Origin: Mortierella sp. BCC40632
Taxonomy: Eukaryota > Mortierellomycota > Mortierellomycetes > Mortierellales > Mortierellaceae
Assembly: GCA_011634665.1 (NCBI GenBank)
Contig: WAEK01000001.1
Location: 759,501 to 823,500 of the forward strand
Direction of reading: 5' to 3'
Length of the DNA: 64,000 bases
The notes beneath the pieces are model-generated. The model searched no databases and had not been told where the DNA came from. It was given only the letters and a program-made list of their open reading frames with translations. This document shows, one piece after another, positions 15,597 to 60,756 of the stretch. The first letter of the stretch is position 1. Each line of letters begins with the position of its first letter. The position numbers were made by a program, and so were the translations under genes.

Positions 15597-16465
15597 AGAA
15601 GGCTGTTGTTCATGGTGTTGAGAAAAAGAAAAAACTGGGCAAGCGAACAAAGCATTTGCGGGCAAGAAGAGGAAAGGGGAAAGGAGATACTTTATCAGAT
15701 CCTCAACGATAAGATTCTTTGACAGGGTCGTGTGTATCTGCGCAGTCCTTCATTGTAGCCTTTACTCACCAAGGGGATACTGTTTGCTTGTGTCCACCAG
15801 TTTGGTTAGTGTGAGTACAGCTTTGTTCGCTGTCCACTTGCCCACGTGCTAATACACCAGATACTCAGGATGCAGGCGGAGGCTTCGCCCAGAAGCAAAC
15901 GGTTCTGAATCCTGTTTCCCTCCAAAGGGAGGGGGAGGTTGATTCTGCCTGACAGTCCATCTACTCTTTTGCGCGCGTTTTGTTCGCCATGGTCTTGATG
16001 CTTGTCCTGTACGAGTTGTCATGAACAGGATCTAGTAAGAAATATCTTCTTTGTCCTTGCCCCTTTCCTATTGATCTGCGTACTCTCCATGTTATCCTTG
16101 GTAGCGAAACCTTGATTCGGCGGCAGACAGATTTAGGTCTAGGAGTATTGGGTATCCATGTCTTTTTGTTCAACTCTGATCAGGCTCTTCGCACGGTATC
16201 ACCTACCAAGAGCATGGTGGGACTGCATTGGCACCATTAGGTACTCATGAATTTGCCACAAATCCAACCCAGCACTCAGAATTTCAGGTCGTGGCTTTGC
16301 ACCAGGAGTGTTTATGCCTAACAGTCCCTGCGGCATGAGAACCACTTGCACACTTTGTTGACCTGTGAAGCATTTGACCGAGCTGACATTCAGAGACGAC
16401 GTTCCAGCTTCCATCTCTTCCTTCTCTTGCTCTACTTTCTTCTCCTTTTCCAGTTTTTTTTCTTT

Positions 16466-45866: not shown

Positions 45867-45895
45867 GGGCGAAGCAATGGAATTGGGGGCGAAGC
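45867..45895 (+). promoter_or_regulatory. Two GGGCGAAGC motifs, 20 bp apart, upstream of zinc-finger gene A
   Basis: Copies at 45867-45875 and 45887-45895, starts exactly 20 bp apart (two helical turns), 140-168 bp upstream of the ATG at 46035. The same 9-mer lies upstream of every gene in the cluster. Confidence 0.6.
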
Positions 45896-46034
45896 GTTCA
45901 GGATGTTTATGATGGGCGCATCGCATTCATCTATTTTCTTCATCCCTGAGTGATGATCGATCATCATCGCTCTCTCGTTCACCTAGTCTCTCTCTTTCTC
46001 TTTCTCACATCCATTCTCAATTCACCTCACCTTG

Positions 46035-47966
46035 ATGGCAAGCCAAAACCCATCCAAGTCGGTCCAGAGGGCGTCAAGAGACATACAGGAGCGTCCAGCG
46101 GCCTCTTGGCTCGCTTCTGGAGATCTCACAGCATCGCCCACGATTGACGCATCGGTACTGCCCATCAATGCTCAAGTACAAATTCAAGATGCAACCGCAC
46201 AATTAGATCTGTCCGAGTTCATCAGGAGCTCAGCAGAATCCACAGGAGCGTCAAATGACTACATCCAGTCACTAGTCACCATTGAGTTTAAATACGCGAT
46301 AGATGAATTGAGACATATTATGGACCCCTATTGGTCGAAGTCGTCCGTCACTTTCGAACCAGACGTTTGGGAAAGAGTACGCCAATGCTTCCAGGCCATT
46401 GGAATAGCTCCACCTGCTAGCCAGCAAAATGGATATCCAGCTAATGGCGAAGGAACCCACCCAGTGTCCTTCAATGCCACCACATCATCGCATCCAGAGC
46501 TTAACAGGAATGAAGGAATACCGTCGTTACAACACACCTATGCTCCAAAACATCCTTCACCCCTCTCAACGACTTTATCCGACAGTAGTCAAATTCAGCA
46601 CTTAACGAATCTTTACTGGATGGCCCAATCATCTAGCCACCCAATACACTCGAACTATGCATCAACTCTAGAAAACTCAGGAGCGCTCCAAAGCATGCAA
46701 CACTGTGCCGGCCTCAATAGCACTCCAATCTCGGCTCCAACGAACATTCGTTCTGAGAATCAATTCGCATTGCCTATTTATGGTAAGTCAATACGAGTCC
46801 ATCGGGAAGGAAGGATTCAGGCGCCTCAATTGATTCGTCCCTGTTTACAACGAATTGTTCTCCATAAACTCATTTTCTTTCCTCCCCTAGGACACTCAAA
46901 CGGGAGTCTTCTCCGCACCCAAAGAGGGTCCATCAACGCTTCTGGACAAACTGGAAGAGGACGTTTGGCCTCGGTGGAAATGCAGGGTCTAGTAATCCCT
47001 GATTTAAGGTCGGGTGGAGAAACCCCTGTCCTGAGAAGTCAAAATCATCTGTGCCATCAACAACCTATAAAGTATGGAAATTATCGCTAGTTTCTCATTT
47101 GTTCCACTCTAAATGACCGACACTAACCTCGCCCTGTGTTCACCTCACTCTTTTTTTTTTTTTATGTTCCATTTTATTAACGGTCTAGTCAATATGGCTC
47201 TACTCAACCATCTCAACCCATGCTTGACCGATCGTCTTTAATTACGGCTCACCCAAACCCCTATGTCATGCGAGGTGAAATAGCAAGTATGGACCATTAC
47301 CTCGCTTTGTCCTTCGGATGTCTTATATGCTGATGGTCAAGAAGCCTCTCTTGTCTTCCGTGTCCTTACCTTCCATGCTACACTTTTCTTTCCGTCGGTA
47401 ATCCGACTAATTCAATAGATGGAGGCTCAGCAAATAAGCGGGGTCTCTCGTATCCACCTATTCAACCGCCTCCAAAGGCTAGAGGACTTGGGGTTGCTTC
47501 ACCCCTTCGAGAGGATCATTCATTTCCTTCGCAATCTCCTGAGGCTTCAGCATCCTTCCATGGCAAGCCCAAACACAAGAACATATTCACTAAAAGCGCA
47601 GCCGCTGTTGCAAAGGTGACAGGAATGGCTAAAAGAACCATGGAAAAGTCGGTCGCCCTAGGAAGAAACTGTGGGTCATCGTCATCTCATTCGACAAGTG
47701 GAACGATAGTAGTTCAAGACAGCCCTGTGGACTATGCGTCTTCCAGGACTGAGAATTATTCCGTCGATACATGTTCAGGTGCTGTCAAGCCCTCGTGTCA
47801 TTTGTGCGAGAAATCATATTCCAGTCAGTCAAACTTGACTCGGCATATCGAGTCAAAACATAGAAACCGTAAATTTGAATGCCCAAAGTGTGACAAGACA
47901 TTTACGCAAGAGGTTTCAAGGGCCAAGCACCTCAAAGGTCCATGCTCAAGGAGAAAACAAGGCTAA
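46035..47966 (+). CDS. C2H2 zinc-finger protein A (two fingers, C-terminal)
   Basis: Four exons, 46035-46782, 46891-47071, 47189-47286 and 47419-47966, give 524 aa. The exon-3 donor could instead be at 47275 (GTGAAA); both keep the frame. The long N-terminal part is Ser/Gln/Asn-rich, with a helical stretch near IKYAIDELRHIMDPYWSK-like sequence (about residues 75-110). The fingers are CHLCEKSYSSQSNLTRH followed by IESKH, and CPKCDKTFTQEVSRAKH followed by LKGPC, the second ending in Cys instead of His. The last residues are basic. Such proteins are nuclear DNA-binding regulators. Finger 1 has the YxxxSNLxRH helix and finger 2 the FTQxxS helix shared by all five cluster members. Intron 1 is 108 nt, a multiple of three without a stop, so a retained form would add 36 residues. 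Confidence 0.75.
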
Positions 47967-49570
47967 TCTTGAAGTGATTCCAGAGAACTGTGTTAAAAAA
48001 AAAAAAAAGGGCTTTCATAGCGCCTACGGTTCCGAACAGCTCTCTATACTTGATTCTTTTTTCTCTATCGTGAGTTTTTGGAGGGAGAGAGGGGGGGGGG
48101 ACGAATATATATATATATATCTAGGCTAAGGAATCAATTACCAAAGCCAACCTAATAAACCTATACGTTGCATCTTAAAATATTTTCTAAATGTCAGTTG
48201 CTCGGGTGAACCTGCCAGTGGCCGTGTAGGCTTTCCGCGGTGATTTATGTCATGACTAAATCGCGAGTAGCGTGCTCATTTGACTCTAAGAGTAACTGAT
48301 GGAAAGAACTTGGGGGGGGGTTCAAAAGCAATAACTAGCGGGTTCCTTTTCAGCCCGTCAGTTCAGTGAACTGAGCTGCAAATTCTACCATAGGTTTGAA
48401 TGAAAGAATGACATTACTTGTAAATTGGTTAGGACTCATAGTAAATGACTTACCGGAGAGGTGGTGCTCTTTTTGGGAGGAAGCTAAAGGGAATAAAAGA
48501 TGGAGGCAAGGAATTAGGGGAGGGCATGAGAGAGAGAAAGAAGATAAGAGGAGCAAGAAGAGGAAACGGAAGAATAGGAAGAGGAAGAATAGGAAGAGGA
48601 GGAGGAAGTAGAGGAGGAAGAAAGTGACGAGGAAAAAGTGGTGAGGAGGAAGAGGGGATTGAAGATGAGTAGTTTTATACCTTTTGGGCGGAGCCGAGCT
48701 TTCAGCCTGAATCGAATCTCGCTGCATCTCTTTCTATCGGCCTCTTTGCCTCTATCTCTCTTTCTATCATTCTTTCTATCCCTCTTTCTGTCCCATCTCT
48801 ACCTTTCATTTCTCTCTCTCTATCTGTCTCTCCTGTTTCTAGTGGCTTTAGACTCGACTGAGAGTGGAACCACTTTGGTCATGAAAAGGGGTACACGCAA
48901 AACGTCATGCCCAAAGCCCATAATTGAACTGCATGAGCATGAAGGAGGCGAAGCAGGGGAAACCATGCCATGACAGGAAAGGCGCAGCGAAGAGAGAGAG
49001 AAAGGTGGAGGGGGGTGAGGTATAAGTGGAGTATCTTTAGGTGAGAAAATGGCTGAAAAAAGATACCAATCATTTTCTTTAAAAAAAATCCGCCAAAGCT
49101 CCAACAACCTTCATCCATGACAACAATGTTCGGAGTTGGAGGAGGTAGCATAAAGGAGGGCGCATTGCTTTAGAAGAATGTTCTAGGAAATGGCATGAAC
49201 AGAGTCGAATCCCCCCTCTTGAATCCCCTGAAAAAAAAAAAAAAAAAGGGAGCAACTTAAAAAAACACCAGGTTGTAGAATCCATTTTGACTTATGGGAT
49301 ACTGACAATGGCATTGTAAAGTCCCTCCCTGGCATCGTAATTTTGCAGACAACTTGTACGACCCCCCTCCTGCATTAGACATTCTGCGGTGTTTCCTTGC
49401 ATCCTTTTTTTTTTTTTTTCCTCTCCCCACGAGGTTCAAATAGATTGCAGATCACGAGTTGAACAATGCCTGAAAAAAAAAAAAAAAGAAAAAAAAGTGC
49501 CATGGTCATCTTTCCAAAGTATGGGTGCGTCATAGTCGTTTTTTTTTTTTTTTTGCTATTATTGACTATT
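47967..49570. other. Convergent intergenic region with homopolymers
   Basis: Contains (AT)n at 48106-48120, a long purine-rich block (48475-48655) and a facing pyrimidine-rich block (48725-48840). Several A/T runs occur between 49080 and 49555. A near-palindrome CAGTTCAGTGAACTG lies at 48358-48372. No gene is supported. Confidence 0.5.
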
Positions 49571-51839
49571 TTACTCTACTTCATCTTTCTTACAAGACTC
49601 TGCCTCTCGAGTCCTGCGGCATGATTGTTGATGTTTCTTGGATCGATCCATTCGTGAGAAGGTCTTTCCACAGTCTTTACAGGCAAACTTCTTTTGATGG
49701 TGAACTGAACTCACATGGCGACTCAGAGAGGTGGCCTGAGTAAAGCGACACCCACAAAAGAGACATTCAAAATGCTTTTGGTCACCCATACAGTCATGAA
49801 CTTCCTTCTCGTGGCGTCGTAGGTTGGATATGCTGGAATATACTTTGGAACATTGGGCGCATCTGAATTGGCGAAACAATTGCATGGACTTTCCCGTCTC
49901 CTTTGCCGTCGAGGATCGTACAGCGGGATTGCAGACTTCGCCTGTCTTGGCTTCGCCTTGGCCGAGTATTGAAGATCTCGAAGGAAAGAATGTTGGGGGT
50001 ATGGACTGATCCGGGATCTGAGTTGAGGATTGACCATGGTGGTTATCTGGGAGTTTAGTGATTGTTTCCACCGCGTTGGGAGATGGTGAGTTTTTCTTTG
50101 GGGAAGTATTTGGTCTAAATGAGCGAACGGAAAACGTGCTAGGTCTGGCCATGGACTTGGAGTGTCGTTGGGCTGAAAGCTTTGTAAAGATTGTCTCCAA
50201 AGGTAGTTTAGTATGTGAGTCTAAGGAGGTACATCTGTGATCAAAGCTGGAGTCGCAAAGGTGCTTCGAGATGGGCCTTTCTTCAGAGAGATTCCTTCGA
50301 TGAAGAGGATTTGGCCTGACCATTGGGTCCTTGGATGAATTTTCATTTGTCTGATTGGACTCTGACTTGACGGGGTTTGATTTGGTCGAAGGCGCTTGCA
50401 TCGGTACTTCGGCCAACCGGTTGTGCTCTTTTAAGCCTTGGGTCAAACAGATTCCGTTCAACGAGGTTTCGATTTCGCCCAAGATGGTCTCCACAGCAGC
50501 TCGGCTACTTGAACGTGGCTAGATTTATTCGTTAATTGGGGTAGGAATGGTTTTTTGCAAGAAAAAAAAGTATGTTAACTCCATCCGCCATTTTAACCTA
50601 CACGGCTATGACAAACTTCTGCGACAGCTAACTGGAAAATCTGGAACTAACTCTTCTACCATGTACAGGCTGGACCTTTGACTCATCCTTGGTTTCCAGA
50701 GTGTCAACACCACTGTAATGTAGCAACCTCAACACCATCAGAGGACTCAGTGTTGGCTTGGTACATCCATCCGCATCAGGGACTGGGTGCTCGAGAGACC
50801 ATGGAACTGACAAGGAATCAGACGACTTTTGTTTGACCTTTGCCTTGCCCTTTGCACTGTCCTCGGGCTGCGATTTGTTTTCGAGCGCTGTCAGCGCCTC
50901 GCCTACCCAATCACCCTCGACAGGTAATAGATCCCCAACCCCTAGAACACTCTGGAAGGATGAAGCGTCCGCTAATGGAGAAAGAATTGGATCCTGAGTG
51001 GCAAGTACATGCTGGGCTGTTGATGACAATATCGGGTCGTGTGTGAGAGCCTCCTCTTGTTGTATCAGGTCTGCTGATTGAAAGACTGTTGATTGATCTC
51101 GGTCAAGGCACTGAAAGCTGTTCGGCAGGTCATCGGAAGTGTAAAGGCGGTTATCATGGCTGATGATTTCAGACAGAGTCCGAAAGGGCATCCCCATTGA
51201 AGGATGGAGGGGGCTGTCAAGTTGGGACAGAGCCCATCTGGGTATCAATTCACCCTGTCCTACATTGTTCTGGATGAGAGGACTGCTTTCGATCTCGAGG
51301 TTCTGATGGGTGGGAAGATCATTGCCAGGGCCAGTGCTGTCAACAATCATGTCATGGAAGAAAATCGGATTCATTTCTGCCGCAGACATAGTCGAAGGCA
51401 CATCGAAGGTATAAAGATCTTCAAAGTAAGGTATGGTGCAGTCCTCTGCAAGGGTCCCCTCGCATTGTGAGAAGTGAGGATACTGTTGCTGATTCTGGTT
51501 TAGTGCGGGAGGGGGAGGATGTGGTGGGGGTGGTGGCGGTGATGGTTGCTTCAGTGGGGTCATGGTCTCGGTGTTGAAATACTGGATAGAGGCATTGCCG
51601 TCCAAGTGTTGGTGAGTGCTGTTGGGATATGTGTCTGATGGTAAAGGGACAGAGGATGTGTCCTCGTTGTAGTAAGGGACATGGATATTTAGTGAAGCTA
51701 GCCAAGGAATTGGATAGAAGGGCGATCTGGTATCCTCGTGAACCAGGAGATATTCGTGACCCCGAGCATCGCATCGATGGGTTTGCGAACGCTGCTCATG
51801 CCGCTTGGTTGTATGCGAATACAGTTTCTTGTTGATCAT
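49571..51839 (-). CDS. C2H2 zinc-finger protein C (three fingers, C-terminal)
   Basis: Proposed as two exons, 51839-50652 and 50518-49571, 711 aa. The phase-0 join uses donor GTTAGT and acceptor ATCTAG; the donor is the least certain element (GTACAT at 50664 also keeps the frame). If unjoined, these would be two proteins, but the fingers then lack a start ATG. N terminus: MINKKLYSHTTKRHEQRSQT, then polyPro and acidic Gln-rich sequence of activation-domain type. Basic region before the fingers (SFRPNTSPKKNSPSP). Fingers: CAQCSKVYSSISNLRRH, CLFCGCRFTQATSLSRH and CKDCGKTFSRMDRSKKH, the third closing with Cys (QQSC). A nuclear DNA-binding regulator by family. Its upstream region has a TATATA at 52098-52103 and a 34-plus A run in the leader. 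Confidence 0.65.
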
Positions 51840-51905
51840 TTCCAGTTGCAGCTGAAAAATTTCAAGAAGAGACGGGGAAGGATGTGAAATGGAAAAAAAA
51901 AAAAA

Positions 51906-51942
<37 letters not shown>

Positions 51943-51970
51943 AGACTTTGACGGGAATAGACCAATGACA

Positions 51971-51988
51971 GGGCGAAGCAGGGCGAAG
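51971..51988 (+). promoter_or_regulatory. Tandem GGGCGAAG(C) motifs, 10 bp apart, upstream of zinc-finger gene C
   Basis: GGGCGAAGC at 51971-51979 and GGGCGAAG at 51981-51988, starts exactly one helical turn apart, 132-150 bp upstream of the ATG at 51839. Relative to the minus-strand gene they are in reverse orientation. Confidence 0.6.
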
Positions 51989-52189
51989 TTGGGTGTTGCG
52001 TGAGCCCACTTTGCGAGTCCAACAGCGCTCTTGAATTTGAGAGACTGCGCTTTAGTCAAGTGGTTGGACATTCCAATGTCATTGTCACGAGGGAACTATA
52101 TACTCATGTCCTCTCCTTCCCTCCTCTCTCTCTCTCTCTCTCTCGAAGACTGAGCGAGCCGACTAGGCCAACTCTATCAAGGCCTGTTT

Positions 52190-53040
52190 TTATTGTTGTT
52201 TTGCCATCAACAATTTCTTCCTACAGCGCTTTACATGCTCTATATGTCTCTCTTTCCGTGTAAATGTCTGACCACAGAATGAGCAATTCTCCCTGATGCC
52301 ATGATGGACAGATTTAATATGCCGCTTACATGATGTGTCTTGTGTAAATTCTTCTTTACAGATATTGCAGGTGAACCGGTTGTTAGTATGTCGTTCTCTT
52401 TCATGCCGTCTGAGGTTGGACGCCGTCGCATATCTTTTGATACATTGTCTGCATTTATGATGGCTCGGTTTCGACTGACTTGGGTGCTTGACCCACGGCT
52501 CACTTGGGCTAACCGATGGCTTCTCATTGAGATCACTTGATAGCAGTTCGTTTTGGTCGAAGGATGCTAGCTCATTCTGGTCAAACAATGATGGCAACTC
52601 ATTTTGCTCCGCTGTGGGCAGCTCATCTGAGTCAAGGGATAATGGCGATCCAAAAGAAATCGAGTCCGAAGACTTGCCATTCAAAAAGAATAAGTCTTGT
52701 AGTATTGGAGGATAGGGCGAGTCTGAAAGAGGAGTTTTCGAGCAAGGAACCAGACCTTCCATGAGGTTCTTAAACATCTCCTGTTGATTCGTAAATGTAC
52801 GAGCCAGCCCGATGACTTCCAATTTATAAGAGCTTTGATTCTGTGTCTCGACGTCAGTGATGGGCGACATACTGCCGTCTTCAAGAATTTCTTGAATTTG
52901 GGGCTTCTTTAAGTCTCTAAATTTTCTTACGACCATAATAAGGGTTGTCCTTGACAGCAGTGCTATTGCAAAGAGAGCCCAAAGTTAGCTTTGAAGAGCT
53001 TTTTAGATCGTTTCTTCTTTTTCTTTTTTCTTTCTTTTAC

Positions 53041-53128
<88 letters not shown>

Positions 53129-54076
53129 TTTTTTGTCCTCACCTTTCCACCCTTCACTGAGTTGGGTGTGCAGACTCCCTGCGCGTTGTAGATCCCTGGT
53201 GGTATCAAGGACACCGGTCTTTTTAAAAAGACTCTTGCTATGCGCGCCTTTGGTTCGCACAGCGGTGGGGCCGATGTTGATTTGTCCAGAATAACTCTGC
53301 TCATCATTTGGAGGACATGGTCCCCGTTCCAAAAAATGGTCGTCTCTCTGTGTTGCTACAAAGTCTCCGCCAACTAAAGAGAGCATCCCACTACCACCAC
53401 ATCTATCCATGCCAAAGGAAGAACCAAATTGGCTCAGGTTTGCTCCACTCTCGCCGAAGGTGAAGTTATTCTGCTCAAAATTCACTTCTTCCTCAAGAAG
53501 GAAGGAACTAATGTCATCAACATTCATTTCGCTCGCGCTGGTAGAGGTATTAATCGACTCAGTATAGCAGCCAAGGATATCTTGGTTGTTCGGTATTGAG
53601 TATCGACTCCAGGCGGTTTGGCTAGTGGTAGCTGTCCTTTCGTTAGGAGCAAAATTCTCATTGAGGTCATAAAAAGACTGTGGCTGCTGCTGCTGCTGTT
53701 GTTGTTGCTGTTGTTGTTGGGTCTGGAAATATTTCTGAGGAGACTGTAGAAAGGCTGAATGGGGTTGCATAAGAGAAGGCTGGAAAAAGTCTTGAAAGGG
53801 TAGAGGCGGCTGAGGTGGAAAATACTGTTGCTGTTGAGCTCCGCTGGAGTAGAATCCAAGAGGGTGATTTTGTGGGAGGCAGAGTGGAATCAACTGTTGA
53901 GGATGTAGAGCAAGCTGCTGGTATTGAGGGTGAAAAAGGGCGAGTGGATTGACGATGAATGCCGTCAAGGGTGAGTCAAGACTCACGGCATCGTATCCGT
54001 GGGTAGCCTCAGCAGCACTGGAAGCCTCCTGGGCTTCCTGGGAGGCCATCTGTACCGCCGGAAACTGTGTAAGCAT
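52190..54076 (-). CDS. C2H2 zinc-finger protein D (three fingers, C-terminal)
   Basis: Exons 54076-53143 and 52962-52190 join in phase 1 (LSEGWK / ALLSRTTL) and give 568 aa. The 180-nt intron is mostly a (CTTT)n microsatellite. The N terminus is Gln/Pro/Phe-rich (PPLPFQDFFQPSLMQPH) with a polyQ tract (53675-53718), then acidic (DDISSFLLEEEVNFEQNN), of activation-domain type. Exon 2 holds three units of DQNEL-like sequence and the fingers CRQCIKRYATASNLRRH, CNICKEEFTQDTSCKRH and CSFCGQTFTRKERHIEH, the last ending in Cys (VKRC). It is a nuclear regulator by family. The ATG at 54076 (MLTQFPAV) follows a minus-strand TATAAG at 54206-54211. Confidence 0.78.
53042..53129. repeat. (CTTT)22 tetranucleotide microsatellite inside an intron
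   Basis: Lies between the donor at 53142 and acceptor at 52963 of zinc-finger gene D. On the coding strand it reads (GAAA)n, starting 12 nt after the 5' splice site. Read-through would produce a Lys-Glu-Arg-Lys repeat, which is why the exon looks longer in a naive ORF. Confidence 0.9.
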
Positions 54077-54205
54077 CACTGAGAGTGTGGGAGAGTGAGT
54101 GAGTGTAAGAGAAAGAGAGTGGGAGAGAGAGTGTGTGTGGGAGAAGGAGTGGATGGGAGAGTGAAGGAGAGAGAGGACAAATGAATGATTGAGGAGGCCC
54201 CTGCT

Positions 54206-54211
54206 CTTATA
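54206..54211 (-). promoter_or_regulatory. TATA-like element of zinc-finger gene D
   Basis: Minus strand CATATAAG, 130 bp upstream of the ATG at 54076 and 9 bp from the GGGCGAAGC motif. Confidence 0.5.
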
Positions 54212-54220
54212 TGGGGGGGC

Positions 54221-54229
54221 GGGCGAAGC
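54221..54229 (+). promoter_or_regulatory. GGGCGAAGC motif upstream of zinc-finger gene D
   Basis: Single copy embedded in a G-rich run (GGGGGGGCGGGCGAAGC), directly upstream of the TATA-like element. Confidence 0.6.
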
Positions 54230-54424
54230 AAGAGGGACACGGCCCTCCAACAGCAAGAATAAAACGCCTTGTGAAATGAATCGGATTGACAAGGCTCATT
54301 TGAATCTTTGCAGGAGCCATGGAGACTGCATTCAGATGATCAACCCATCCATGCTCAGATCCTGGGACATGGGTGGAGGGTACAATCCGATAGCCTAATT
54401 GCCTCTTGGGCATTGTGTTGGCAA

Positions 54425-54455
<31 letters not shown>

Positions 54456-54517
54456 AGAGGAGATGTCGCCTGTGTGTCCCGTCGAGATCCCTGCTTATTA
54501 GGTCCCCCTTGCCTGCC

Positions 54518-54549
<32 letters not shown>

Positions 54550-55197
54550 GAAAAGGGCAACAAGGATGCATGGATTTCCAGTTTGTTTCCCGTCAAAAGG
54601 AGCACCCCCTTCGCGAACCAGACAGTGTGAACATGCCGTTGTTTATTGCCGATGTCTCATTTTCTTCGTGACGCAACTGGCTCTGGTCGTCAGTCTGGAA
54701 TAACATGGTCGCTGGCGAAGTCGACTTGTTCTGGACCTGGACGAGGAGGGCAATGCATCACATACTCGAGTCATGACCAGTCTTCATACTTTGGACCTTT
54801 TCCTTCTGATTGCAGGTCCAAAGACGCAATTGCATCGTCCACCACTGGCTTTTGGAAGTCGAAGCCATCCTGATCTATCCATGGGATCCTGTGCGATAGG
54901 GACTCAGGTAGTGAATAATTTAACCATGGCGTCGGCAATAGAAAAGGCACCTGTGTCCAATGTCATAGTAAGCCTGAATTGCTGATGCTTTGCTTGCATG
55001 GGTAATATGAGACACAATTAGTAGAGCGTGCATTTCTAGGAGAGGAGAGAGAGAGCAATTGAGAGGAACGGGGACTTAACCTCTGCTAATCCATAGAAGG
55101 AATGAAGGGCGGAGCAAATGAGCTTACGTGAATGTCGGTGGTATTGATGGCGTACTGAGCAACTGAACGAGCAACGACCCAAGTAACGACTAATGTC

Positions 55198-55237
<40 letters not shown>

Positions 55238-55775
55238 AACCTTAGGCTGTACGACATTATGAATTGGCCACGGCAGGTCTTCAGCCGAAGGCCCCCATGC
55301 GTCGACAGTACCAACCTTTTTCTTTCAAATACCAAACCGAGCTCCAAAGGCACTGCCCCAACAATAACACTGGTCGAACCCATGACTATGCGCCAATAAA
55401 AATCTGATTGAATCGCTCCGTGCCTGAAGAAGTCTTCAGCCCTGTTGCGCAGTCTCTCTGTTTTCGTCCTGACCCGATGATGAAAGCTTTGCCTTTGTCT
55501 CCCGAGCGAGGTAGTAAACATGCTTTCCAAAGCTTCTCCTTGGCTGTCCTGCATGGGAAGTTCTACGGGCTGAGCCGAGTCTGGTGAAAGTGAGTAAAAG
55601 TTGGGCTTTTGGTCCTCGCAACAATTCCTGTTTGGCGGATCTCTTTCTCCCGAAAATATCTGATCGGCAGACGAACATTTTTTTTTTTTTACTGTGATAA
55701 AGCATTGTCAGAGGCAGTGCGTCTACTGCCGTCAAGGAGTCATATCTGTATCAAAAGCGAGAGATTTCATATTTC

Positions 55776-55806
<31 letters not shown>

Positions 55807-56715
55807 AACGGGAGTTTTTTCAGTGGTTGACCTGAGTCCTCGGGTTTATTCATTGTTCAATCTCTTCAAATGCCCTGGTGTTGGAGTGGGAAGGAGTGGG
55901 AAAGAGCGGTAGCAGGAGAGAAACAGAAAGGAAGAGAGGAAAAGAGAGGGTGGGTGGGGGGGGGGGAAGTGAGAGAAAGATGGAGTGTTGAAGAGAAGGC
56001 CGGGGTCTTTCATTTTAAATGAAGAGCAGAGGGAGGTGTTTTCGTTAGGGGCTCGAAAGCTTTGGGCTTTTGGCATTCTCTCTCCTCGGAGCTTCGGACC
56101 GAGATGCATTTTTACTAATTATGCAGTGTCGAAAAAGGGAGACGGAGGGAGTCTTAGTCATGGTCTAAAGAAAAACAAGTGGGTTGGAACACTCCAGGCA
56201 AGAGCGGTGGGGGCAGGGTTCAACAACTGTGGGTGGTATCCTCTTTCAATCGATCTACAGCTGTAAAAGCCGCAAGATGATGAGCCAAGACGGTCTCCAA
56301 GAAAATGAGGGTCTGTTTTTTACGAGAGAGCAATAGCTGAATCTCCGAGGACAGATTGAGGGCCCTGGAAAATAGTGATTTGAACTGAAGAGTGGCTGAT
56401 CGCCCTTCCCCTAAAACTAACCGATGGCTAACTTGGTTAACCAGTGTGGTCAAACCTGGTCAAACTCGATCATTGGGATACAAGGTCCAGAGTGCTTCTC
56501 TCTCGCCTTAATTACCAGCACTACCACTTATCCCACACCATGGATGGTTCTCCCTTACAATGGCTTCGCTTGGAGGCCCTTTACTATATTTATTCTATTT
56601 TTCCTTTTTAAAGACTTTGTAAGGGGGAACATATATACATAGCGAACCCAAAGGAGTCAGCTAGACGAAAAGAGTTTCGTTTCCTCTCGATCATTATGAA
56701 ATTATCTGAATATCT
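54230..56715. other. Intergenic stretch, 2.5 kb, rich in A runs
   Basis: A runs at 54422-54448, 54519-54546, 55199-55235 and 55776-55804. A possible short spliced minus gene lies at 54771-55033 (separate entry). Nothing else is supported. Confidence 0.45.
54771..55033 (-). CDS. Possible short spliced gene or gene remnant
   Basis: Two minus exons, 55033-54951 and 54888-54771, join in phase over a 62-nt GT-AG intron and read as one coherent 66-residue protein. It starts MHALLIVSHITHASKASAIQ, continues AYYDIGHR / IPWIDQDGFDFQKP and ends EGKGPKYEDWS. The acceptor-like CTCCTCTCCTAG just before the ATG suggests a 5' UTR intron or a missing upstream exon. Another coherent stretch, PEQVDFASDHVIPD then stop (about 54692-54735), could be an alternative last exon. 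I recognise no family. It may be a real small gene, the end of a decayed one, or chance. Confidence 0.25.
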
Positions 56716-58251
56716 TTAAGCAACCTTGGTGGTCCACCTGTTTGCCTCTCGGGCAATTCCCAATGGGAGGGATGTTGTCGCCCGAGTAGAATGTCTTGAT
56801 AAGACATGACGCTTCAGTGAAGATGCCTGCGTAAAGTCTCGCATACACTTCTTACAGCGAAATCTTCTTCTCAACTCTAGGTCGTTATGCTCTCGTTCAT
56901 GTCGTTTAAGATTAGATGCTGTGGCATAGTGATTGCCGCAGATACGGCACACGTGTGTAGTGTTTGGGCGAGTATGGATCGTAGTAGTAGTGGTGGTAGG
57001 GTTGGGTGGAGTCGGTTTGGTGGAAGTACCTGTTTGGGTTCTCGTGGCCACGGTTAACGTCTTTTCGAGTAATGATTCCTTATCGATTGACATATTTACA
57101 TCTTGGGTCTCATACTCCATATCTACCAACAATGCTGGTTCTCCCTCTTTTCTCAATAGTTTCAGTGCCCCAGGCGATTTGAAGGATGAGACAAAGGCTG
57201 ATGGGAGATCAGGGACAATGGTGCGGATGCTGGGTAGTTGAACTCTTTTATGCATCTCGAGATGTTGTTCAAAAGGTGGAGGACCAATATCATTGAAATC
57301 CAGATCGATGGTGGTTCCCTCGGTTCGGATCATTTCTTTAGACTGGATATATGGACTGTTGAAAACTTCAGTCTCTGTTATTGAGGAAGACCCTCCCGTC
57401 GCTCCACGACCAGCCTGCTCATCTGTTGCTGTAGAGAGATCTACAACAAATGACGCATTGGATACCGTTCCCAAGGGCCCATTTTTTTGTAAGGAATATC
57501 CTGTAGTCATTGATTGCGGAAGAGTAAGCTCGGGTATCTCGGGGACAGACCCTTCCCGCGTAACGTCCTGCTCTGAGTCTATCAGAAGGGCAGTTTTTTC
57601 TTGACACGTTGACGATGCATAATAGCTTTTCTTAAAAGAGTTGACAGGAGTATCCAAGGTATCCCACGGTTCCCCTTTCTCAGGATCGAGATCGGGATCA
57701 GGATCGGGCGTGGTGTCTTCAGCAGATTGCTTGGCCAAAGTCGAGAAGGACTTGAATACTTCCATGCCTTTGTTGAGAGCGCTATGGACAGATTTGGAAA
57801 CTGACATTATGGTGCTTGGCGCGTAGAGAGCAAAGGCAAGAAACGTCGCGCCTAGCATCCACCCAAGGAAAAGCGGAAATTCAAACTGCTGCTGATCTTC
57901 TTGATGTTCTTGTTTCTCTTCGGGCGAGTCTTGGAACGACTGCTGCTCTTCCAGTTGAATCTGCCGTGGTTGTTTAGCCGATAGTGATCGTCCAGGAGAG
58001 AGTCGAGGTGAGGATAGTGGAGAGTGTGCCGGCGATGATGCTGGAGTAGGTCCGAGCAGACGGCCTTGCCGATGCGTCTTAATGGTGACGGTAATATTTC
58101 TCGAAGTAGCCTTTGAAGAGTCGGGCAAGGCCTGTGGTAAATTAATGTCAATTGTAACGGAGTCTCCGTTGTTGAAGTCATCGATGGGAGTAACTTTTGA
58201 TCGAATCTCTTGCTCCATCGCTAGATGTTGATCTGTCGGAGTGAAATGCAT
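56716..58251 (-). CDS. C2H2 zinc-finger protein E with a predicted membrane segment
   Basis: Single exon, 511 aa. Residues 1-120 are hydrophilic, basic Ser/Pro-rich then acidic Glu/Gln-rich. Residues 125-148 (FPLFLGWMLGATFLAFALYA and PSTI) form a strong membrane-spanning segment. The flank before it is acidic and the flank after it has several Lys (SVSKSVHSALNKGMEVFKSF), so by the positive-inside rule the long C-terminal part should face the cytosol. Two C2H2 fingers lie at 435-455 (CRICGNHYATASNLKRH) and 466-487 (CKKCMRDFTQASSLKRH), followed by a short basic tail. This is the layout of a membrane-tethered transcription factor that would need cleavage to reach the nucleus. No GT-AG intron could remove the hydrophobic stretch. 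The fingers match those of the neighbouring genes; the membrane role is inferred. Confidence 0.78.
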   Translation of the reverse strand: MHFTPTDQHLAMEQEIRSKVTPIDDFNNGDSVTIDINLPQALPDSSKATSRNITVTIKTHRQGRLLGPTPASSPAHSPLSSPRLSPGRSLSAKQPRQIQLEEQQSFQDSPEEKQEHQEDQQQFEFPLFLGWMLGATFLAFALYAPSTIMSVSKSVHSALNKGMEVFKSFSTLAKQSAEDTTPDPDPDLDPEKGEPWDTLDTPVNSFKKSYYASSTCQEKTALLIDSEQDVTREGSVPEIPELTLPQSMTTGYSLQKNGPLGTVSNASFVVDLSTATDEQAGRGATGGSSSITETEVFNSPYIQSKEMIRTEGTTIDLDFNDIGPPPFEQHLEMHKRVQLPSIRTIVPDLPSAFVSSFKSPGALKLLRKEGEPALLVDMEYETQDVNMSIDKESLLEKTLTVATRTQTGTSTKPTPPNPTTTTTTIHTRPNTTHVCRICGNHYATASNLKRHEREHNDLELRRRFRCKKCMRDFTQASSLKRHVLSRHSTRATTSLPLGIAREANRWTTKVA

Positions 58252-58846
58252 GGGTTACGAACTAGAGTAGGCTTTTGTCCGATCGACTTAAGGATGGCGT
58301 TTAGCGGCCCTGGGACGAACAGAAAGTGAAAAAAGATAATAAATTTACCTTGGAGGAAAAGGATGGAGGAGTAGGTAAAGGATAAAATGGCGATGCCACT
58401 ACGAAATGCAGCTCCAATGTAGTTAGAAAACCCAGCGGTCTCTTGAAGTTATGGTCGATGATATATAAGCAGTGTCGGAAAGGCCAAAAGGCAGTAGAAT
58501 CTACTTTATTTCTTAATCCGCCTCAAGGAACATGCGGCGGAGCTTCACGAGACCCCATTACAGAAAAATCCTATAAAAATACTAAGTGCTTCGCCCACCA
58601 AGCTCCGCCAAGAAACTTCCCAATCTACCACCTTGAGTCATTCGTCCGTTCGGCTGCCGGTGGCTCCTTTTTCGTCCTGTCAAAATAAATCCATTAGCGA
58701 CCTCATTCTCTTTGCAAAGCCCCTTTGAAGGAGTAACAGATGCAACTATTTTTAAAAGAAAAAGAATTAAATAGGTAAACGAAAAGTGTGTTACCTAAAC
58801 TCCTTGAGAGGAGGGATTCTCTAGGGGAAAAGATAATGAAATCGTG
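58252..58846. other. Upstream region of zinc-finger gene E
   Basis: Intergenic between genes F and E. It holds a GCTTCGCCC motif, an AT-rich TATA-like element (58571-58581) and a TATATAA at 58462-58468. No extra gene. Confidence 0.5.
58588..58596 (-). promoter_or_regulatory. GGGCGAAGC motif upstream of zinc-finger gene E
   Basis: Plus strand reads GCTTCGCCC, 337 bp upstream of the ATG at 58251. On the minus strand a TATTTTTATA-type element follows 6 bp downstream. Confidence 0.55.
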
Positions 58847-60238
58847 TTACGTTGGCAGTTGCCTTCGACATCGGTGCTTATTCAAACTCAGACTTCTAGT
58901 ATAACTGCATCCGCACTCTTCACACCTGTAGTCTATATGCTTGTGTCGTTTTCTAATATGTCTATTCAAAGCTGACGATTGTGTGTATCGCCTGCCGCAG
59001 CCCTCGTAATAACACTCCGCGGTTTGTTGCTCATGAAAGGACCTGATGTGGCGTTTTAGATTGCTTGGTGTCGAGAACATCCTAGAACAACCATCGAAGA
59101 TGCAGACTTTTGGGAGATGTCGTTGTTTTCCTTTGTTGGAGGATGGGTGCAAGCCCAGGTCCTGTGAGCGCGGTGACTCCTTCCTCGAGTTTACCGAAAC
59201 CATCATTTTATCGAAGCCACCAAGAGGATCTTCATTTAAAGGGACGACCGAATGGTGTCGCGAGATCTTTTTCGGATTGTCTATCAAAAGACGCGAGAGA
59301 TTCCCAAGGAACGGCTGCGGCTGCAGATGTTGCTGGACTGAAGGATCCGAGTGGCAAGATTGTAACCTTTGCTGGAATGCATCAACCACTGCATTGTTCG
59401 ACTCGAGTGTCATAGATTGGTGAAGGCCTGGGTCCTCGGTTAAGGTCTCGTCTCCAACAGGTTCTGTTTGTTGGAAGAGCGGTGAATATGGAATCGAAGG
59501 TGACTCGGCAACTGACGCTTGGATGGAATGAGGCGTCGCAAACAAGGTTGGTCTAGAGTTAGGGGACTGGATTTGTTGATAATGCAGATTCTGCGCACTT
59601 ATTTCATGCGAGATCATCCATCCCAAGGGCTCGGGCAAGGGTGATGCGAGTTGTAGACTAGGATGCAGATTTCCTGGCCAAGCCAATGACGACAGAGTGT
59701 TCGAATAGAAAGGAGACGACGCAGAGTTGGGAAGCTCCATCAGCGCTAGGGTCTGCTGTGCGTCTTCCTCCATGATTGACTTTAGGGAAACAAAGGATAG
59801 GGGTTCTGTTGCTGGATACATAGGTGGCCATGAAAGGTCGCTACCGGAGTACATCTGGTTCATGTTGGAGGACGTCCACGGTGCGATGGGTGCTAGATCT
59901 GGCGGGAGCAATACTGGCGTTGGCTTTATAGAAGGAGCCTTTGTAGGGGGTACAGAAGGTCGTTCAAAAGTCATTAGTGCTGGCGGAGCAGGGCGCATTT
60001 CTAGTGAAAGGCTGTCTGCTCCAGTAAAATTGATTGAGTGGGCTGGGGCTTGACTACTAGTTGGAGAGAGACTGGTGAGGAGAAAGCTGGGGCCGCCGCT
60101 ATGAATGAGACGGCTAACGCTGATGCTGTCACTAGGCTGAAAGGAGGGAGTCGGATAGAAGGATGTGGGCTGAGTGGGAGGCGTAAGTTCATGATGGATA
60201 AGGCGGTGTGCGCCCCCGTCCATAATGAAACTGTCCAT
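58847..60238 (-). CDS. C2H2 zinc-finger protein F (three fingers, C-terminal)
   Basis: Single exon, 463 aa, starting MDSFIMDGGAHRLIHH. The N-terminal 360 residues are Ser/Pro/Leu-rich and disordered, of activation-domain style. Three fingers close the protein: CIFDGCSRMFSTPSNLKRH, CYYEGCGRRYTQSSALNRH and CEECGCSYTRSLSLNKH. The first two use the C-x4-C spacing typical of the TFIIIA/Zap1-like branch, unlike the C-x2-C of cluster members A, C, D and E. Helix residues are nonetheless the same type (SNLKRH in finger 1, TQxxAxxRH in finger 2). The third finger ends HRC instead of a spaced His. A basic stretch (SSNKGKQRHLPK) precedes the fingers. A nuclear DNA-binding regulator by family; targets unknown. 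Confidence 0.82.
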   Translation of the reverse strand: MDSFIMDGGAHRLIHHELTPPTQPTSFYPTPSFQPSDSISVSRLIHSGGPSFLLTSLSPTSSQAPAHSINFTGADSLSLEMRPAPPALMTFERPSVPPTKAPSIKPTPVLLPPDLAPIAPWTSSNMNQMYSGSDLSWPPMYPATEPLSFVSLKSIMEEDAQQTLALMELPNSASSPFYSNTLSSLAWPGNLHPSLQLASPLPEPLGWMISHEISAQNLHYQQIQSPNSRPTLFATPHSIQASVAESPSIPYSPLFQQTEPVGDETLTEDPGLHQSMTLESNNAVVDAFQQRLQSCHSDPSVQQHLQPQPFLGNLSRLLIDNPKKISRHHSVVPLNEDPLGGFDKMMVSVNSRKESPRSQDLGLHPSSNKGKQRHLPKVCIFDGCSRMFSTPSNLKRHIRSFHEQQTAECYYEGCGRRYTQSSALNRHIRKRHKHIDYRCEECGCSYTRSLSLNKHRCRRQLPT

Positions 60239-60721
60239 GGCAGGCGGGGCTAAGGCGAGTGGGCGCGGCGAGGATTCGTGAGCAGGTGGGGCACTGAGGA
60301 TCAGAGGCGTGGCTTGGGATGAAACGTGTCGAGTACATGCGCCTCAGAAAAGTACAAGCGTGGAAATTGAGGTTGCCAAGATTTCGGTTGGTGATGGCCT
60401 TCAAGGTCTTCTGCTTTTTATGGCTCACACTCTATCCTGGGAGATTACTACAACAGTAGCAGCGAAATATCGGAGGAGACTCTAGTAAGCCTCTGGTAGT
60501 TGATGTCTAAGAGAATATTGAAGAATATAGGAGGATATGGGAGGATATAGGAGGATATGGTTATGTGGCGATGTGCTTCTCTAAGCACAGAGGACGTCTC
60601 ATTATTTGGGCGGGTCAGAATGGCAGTGGTGCAAGGAATCAATGGCTCAGGCGTACAAAGACTTGAGAGCGGTTGAGAGGGTGCGGCTCGGAACAAGAAA
60701 GAAAGGATGGTCCAATGACAG

Positions 60722-60728
60722 ATTTATA
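60722..60728 (-). promoter_or_regulatory. TATA box of zinc-finger gene F
   Basis: Minus strand TATAAAT, about 485 bp upstream of the ATG at 60238, so the leader would be long or hold an intron. It lies 10 bp from the motif pair. Confidence 0.5.
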
Positions 60729-60738
60729 AGTGGTCTTT

Positions 60739-60756
60739 GCTTCGCCCACTTCGCCC
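60739..60756 (-). promoter_or_regulatory. Tandem GGGCGAAG(C) motifs, 10 bp apart, upstream of zinc-finger gene F
   Basis: On the minus strand GGGCGAAG is followed by GGGCGAAGC with starts one helical turn apart, directly upstream of the TATA box. Confidence 0.6.

Follow-up and report, generated by a model that had tools for sequence, protein, structure and literature searches.

The GC box that accompanies a TATA box is a GC-rich element that acts in either orientation, and the promoter element that we describe here is likewise GC-rich, orientation-independent and, at three genes (D, E and F below), 9-10 bp from a TATA-like stretch. Its core, however, is GGGCGAAGCA, the variant GGGCGGAGC is hardly enriched in the genome (365 copies versus 289 of the reversed word), and its coupling to TATA is weak genome-wide. 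A second point of comparison is the homotypic cluster of transcription factor binding sites, the subject of papers such as PMC9452512: here too, copies or near copies lie within tens of base pairs of one another, in both orientations, in the promoters of related genes. Our promoters hold fewer copies than the classic clusters (one or two of the A-form each). The arrangement also resembles autoregulated C2H2 factors such as Zeb2 (PMC10048071), since zinc-finger genes share a site in their own promoters, although binding by the genes' own proteins is in our case hypothetical.

We analyzed a 64-kb window of the Mortierella sp. BCC40632 genome (C1:759501-823500; the genome comprises 49.9 Mb in 62 contigs), in which the features of interest are these:

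Gene A, 46035..47966, forward strand: C2H2 protein with its fingers in the last exon (47796-47966), where a zf-C2H2 match lies
Gene A sites, 45867..45895, forward strand: two exact copies of GGGCGAAGC, 20 bp apart, the first of which extends to GGGCGAAGCA
Gene C, 49571..51839, reverse strand: predicted first exon about 51839-50648 and C2H2 exon 50518-49571
Gene C sites, 51971..51989, forward strand: GGGCGAAGCA, then GGGCGAAGT at 10-bp spacing, reversed relative to the gene
Gene D, 52190..54077, reverse strand: predicted first exon from 54077, C2H2 exon ending at 52190
Gene D site, 54221..54230, forward strand: a single GGGCGAAGCA, reversed relative to the gene
Gene E, 56716..58251, reverse strand: 511-residue C2H2 protein with two fingers
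Gene E site, 58587..58596, reverse strand: GGGCGAAGCA, with a variant copy, GGCGGAGC, at 58602
Gene F, 58847..60238, reverse strand: 463-residue C2H2 protein
Gene F sites, 60738..60756, reverse strand: GGGCGAAGT, then GGGCGAAGCA, 9 bp apart, with TATAAA 10 bp on
Seventh 9-mer, 15882..15890, reverse strand: noncoding, about 970 bp before a predicted gene

A sequence-only reading of this DNA had proposed that the 9-mer GGGCGAAGC marks the upstream regions of the five zinc-finger genes, and exact matching of both strands bears out all seven of the positions it gave: 15882(-), 45867(+), 45887(+), 51971(+), 54221(+), 58588(-) and 60739(-). Six of these lie 132-501 bp 5' of the five ATGs, at 168 and 148 bp for gene A (ATG at 46035), 132 bp for C (51839), 144 bp for D (54077), 337 bp for E (58251) and 501 bp for F (60238). 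Genes A, E and F have the word in their own sense, and C and D have it reversed. While the 9-mer does stand upstream of all five, the word that they truly share is one base longer, the 10-mer GGGCGAAGCA (5/5). The match at 15882 lacks the A after the 9-mer and shows no link to a zinc-finger gene. Copies with one mismatch, GGGCGAAGT, occur at 51981(+) and 60748(-); the gene A promoter carries a GGCGGAGT variant immediately upstream of its two GGGCGAAGC copies; and gene D, in whose promoter no second copy of the word was found, has a TATATAAG-like stretch 9 bp beyond GGGCGAAGCA on the gene side. Elsewhere in the window, an apparent intron of gene D holds a long TTTC/GAAA tetranucleotide repeat (about 53036-53133), and a nucleoside transporter shares 86% identity along its entire length with a protein of Mortierella alpina, its leading matches being from Mortierellaceae. 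Words such as CTCACTC and those of the ACGCAC type are in strong excess in the noncoding DNA of the window and of loci L010-L029.

How surprising six copies are depends on the background rate chosen. In 100 shuffles of the window GGGCGAAGC occurred 0.53 times on average and at most twice, matching the half a match expected by the sequence-only reading; that figure nonetheless understates the chance rate, the word being in excess in the genome as a whole. The actual genome rate predicts 0.16 copies for the 14.9 kb that holds the six (P 2.4e-8, or about 8e-5 once multiplied by how many stretches of this length the genome contains). To allow for freedom in the choice of word, we also asked how often five random promoters share any 9- or 10-mer in all five, and found 0 such sets in 10,000. 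These sets were drawn from the upstream regions (up to 600 bp) of 58 other predicted genes, 10 from the window and 48 from loci picked for the 9-mer, and 5 of the 58 themselves hold it; gene starts are approximate, having been set by a crude hidden Markov gene finder trained on 262 kb of this genome.

Across the genome the 9-mer occurs 551 times versus 147 for the reversed word, and the 10-mer 249 times versus 28, about ninefold. The Markov expectation (order 1-4, fitted to sampled DNA of this genome) is 202-297 9-mers and 68-90 10-mers, giving a stricter excess of 1.9-2.7 fold and 2.8-3.7 fold, respectively. In the 262 kb on which the gene finder was trained, noncoding DNA contains 16 copies of GGGCGAAG versus 3.5 expected, a count to which the cluster in the window contributes part. 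We also examined 20 loci that hold the first 21 matches on contig C1 outside the window. Of these 21 sampled 9-mers, six stand no more than 600 bp upstream of a predicted gene, a zone that takes in 17.5% of positions (P 0.15), six are coding and nine are elsewhere; for the sampled 10-mers the upstream share is 4 of 8 (P 0.04). Loci L032-L041 were left out of this count, having been picked by TATA. The genes downstream of sampled sites encode, among others, a ThrE-type exporter, an AAA ATPase, a YEATS protein and an LCAT-type enzyme, although the site at the last may be intronic, because the LCAT frame begins inside the domain (L028). Outside the cluster, then, the promoter bias is modest and the targets look unrelated. 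This is in part the outcome that the sequence-only reading had named as damaging to its proposal, a 9-mer as common before unrelated genes: some of the 551 copies do lie near such genes, and the word is not limited to the family, though one factor's targets may be many.

One of the 21 sampled matches leads back to zinc fingers. At C1:1140060 (L023), GGGCGGAGC is followed directly by GGGCGAAGCA and then by TATAAA, before a two-finger C2H2 frame whose fingers are related to those of the cluster (E 0.001 to gene D). Other C2H2 genes were located on contigs C1-C5, at least 23 outside the cluster, with 150 of 285 C2H2 candidates scored; 21 were tested directly, and two (C1:293988 and C1:297285) were compared with the genome-wide word positions. 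The dispersed gene at L023 is the only one of the 23 with the 10-mer in its promoter, while the other 22 lack it there, against five of five in the cluster (P 6e-5 to 2e-4). We therefore reject the idea that all C2H2 genes carry the word; since other C2H2 genes, including a tandem trio, lack it, the tie is to this C2H2 family and not to zinc fingers at large. The trio occupies C1:291273-297476, and no 9-mer occurs between C1:132906 and C1:310743. One further gene of the 23 (L044) has the 10-mer inside its coding region; this match and another in C2H2 coding sequence (L013) read GCTTCGCCC in the sense strand, which at L013 amounts to Ala-Ser-Pro codons, and were excluded as promoter sites. C2H2 matches with identical scores at C31:94795-95046, C34:29090-29341 and C37:58059-58310 are perhaps recent duplicates or redundant contigs.

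The sites also tend to be repeated. A second copy of GGCGRAG lies within 60 bp at genes A, C, E and F, not at D, and at the dispersed C2H2 gene, compared with none of 14 other noncoding sites (P 4e-4). The proposed helical phasing of these copies fares less well: the spacing is 20 bp at A and 10 bp at C, as had been read, but 9 bp and not 10 at F; at both C and F the second copy has a mismatch; and genome-wide only 18 of 52 direct GGGCGAAG pairs have a spacing that differs from a multiple of 10 by no more than 1 bp, where about 15 are expected. We therefore reject phasing. Multiples of 3 account for 29 of the 52 spacings, which suggests coding repeats. Direct GGGCGAAG pairs (52 genome-wide versus 5 for the reversed pattern) number three in the window and so occur elsewhere too, which means that pairing by itself does not set the cluster apart. 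A tandem run of five GGGCGAAG copies, spaced by 11 bp, lies at C9:1204790-1204841, and at C4:1769033-1769053 GGGCGAAGCA and GGGCGGAGC stand 12 bp apart, a mixed pair like that before the dispersed C2H2 gene, with no C2H2 match nearby among the matches listed.

In D, E and F the site is indeed followed, after 9-10 bp, by a TATA-like element, although that of E reads TTTTTATA in the sense of the gene. Genome-wide, 12 copies of the word (5 + 7, both orientations counted) have TATAAA 5-35 bp downstream, where about 6.1 are expected (P 0.02), and one opposite arrangement gives 4 versus 3.1 expected; the coupling is weak. CCAAT lies near five of the six cluster sites, counting gene A's two sites, which lie in one common stretch, and near five of 15 other noncoding sites, against a background of 21% of noncoding windows.

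The word is real, significant and probably functional. Its presence in five of five promoters that share no other homology, together with the second copies and the sixth gene, gives the shared regulatory site proposed by the sequence-only reading good support. We propose that GGGCGAAGCA serves as a proximal promoter site that works in either orientation and is recognized, as double-stranded DNA, by a sequence-specific transcription factor with candidate targets across the genome of this Mortierellaceae fungus. A small C2H2 family, made up of the tandem cluster of five genes and at least one dispersed gene, carries an unusually dense and often repeated set of these sites, which would co-regulate its genes. 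This account, in which the word is a putative site for a factor with targets throughout the genome and is concentrated on the family, is the one we favor, and we hold it to be somewhat more probable than all others together. A control element of this sort, though real, would be fairly ordinary.

Other origins for the pattern can be weighed against this proposal. The word could be a general promoter or chromatin element, the site of a general regulatory factor present in many promoters, in which the cluster is rich by descent or local chance. Its 551 copies, some near unrelated genes, the weak excess of TATAAA downstream (12 versus 6.1) and the unrelated genes that follow some of the TATA-selected loci all fit such an element. 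The presence of six copies within 14.9 kb does not (P 2.4e-8 given the genome rate), nor does the confinement of second copies, within our sample, to zinc-finger promoters, nor the lack of the word at other C2H2 genes, including the tandem trio (C1:291-297 kb), and we regard a general element as unlikely. A different possibility is that the word is a remnant of a promoter copied along with its gene, given that by their fingers the cluster genes are tandem paralogues. When the five proteins are compared by BLAST, however, similarity of any strength is confined to the fingers (about 24-54% identity), and the promoters show no homology beyond the word besides simple sequence: apart from pyrimidine-rich and A-rich stretches, the longest sequence that any two have in common is 13 bp, between A and C, and is the word itself. 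Since the proteins align in their fingers only and the promoters otherwise share just simple sequence, leftover duplication is improbable; promoters alike only in simple sequence and a 10-13 bp core, with the word's orientation, copy number and distance varying from gene to gene, make it a poor account of the pattern. Even if it were correct, retention of the word while everything else diverged would imply selection.

A structural role as single-stranded DNA seems to us less credible still. The 9-mer contains GCGAAGC, the sequence of a known, very stable DNA mini-hairpin, and there are papers that pair GCGAAGC with extraordinarily stable hairpins. The promoters nevertheless share more than the hairpin core, which is preceded by GG and followed by A, and the GGCGGAG variants close by would presumably form no such hairpin.

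The sequence-only reading further suggested that the cluster's own proteins might bind the site. On this rival view, at least one cluster C2H2 protein would bind GGGCGAAGCA, so that the cluster would control itself as well as distant targets. Finger 1 keeps S-N-L-x-R in all five proteins, and the helix of finger 2 starts with Q in all five, its position 6 being R in four and K in A; because these residues are constant, a common core may be read. The way the site gathers on this family, and before a sixth gene whose fingers are related, points the same way. Against it, the finger code predicts about GNA-GAN for fingers 1-2, with no clean fit to the 10-mer, and GTAGAT or GTAGAA is present in one of the five cluster promoters; this objection is weak, as the code is unreliable. 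In addition, A and E have two fingers only, and many sites lie at unrelated genes. We consider auto- or cross-regulation a tentative idea, with the chances well against it.

Protein searches with E and F matched two proteins each. One of those matched by E is a Mortierellaceae relative, a Lunasporangiospora selenospora protein that covers 66% of E at 41% identity and has almost the same finger helices; for F, neither of the two proteins matched is a Mortierellaceae relative. Residues 125-143 of E (window 57823-57879) form a hydrophobic stretch, FPLFLGWMLGATFLAFALY, with a mean Kyte-Doolittle value of 1.69, which raises the possibility that E is a zinc-finger factor anchored in a membrane; the L. 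selenospora sequence is partial and leaves this region uncovered. A bolder extension of the autoregulation idea, and one equally doubtful, is that some Mortierellaceae may possess a self-wired family of fast-diverging tandem C2H2 genes, whose promoters carry a site read by the family's own protein or proteins, with the roughly 250 further 10-mers as its regulon, and that site and reader would have spread jointly as the rest diverged.

To our knowledge, the promoter words of early-diverging fungi are little charted. A literature search for the word itself returned one paper, on human TATA-box variants, and no promoter motif set for Mortierella appears among the matches listed, judging by their titles and the opening lines of their abstracts. 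An enriched 10-mer with five co-located target genes of transcription-factor type is a good handle for a first regulon in this group, and it makes autoregulation of the zinc-finger cluster testable by a single binding assay.
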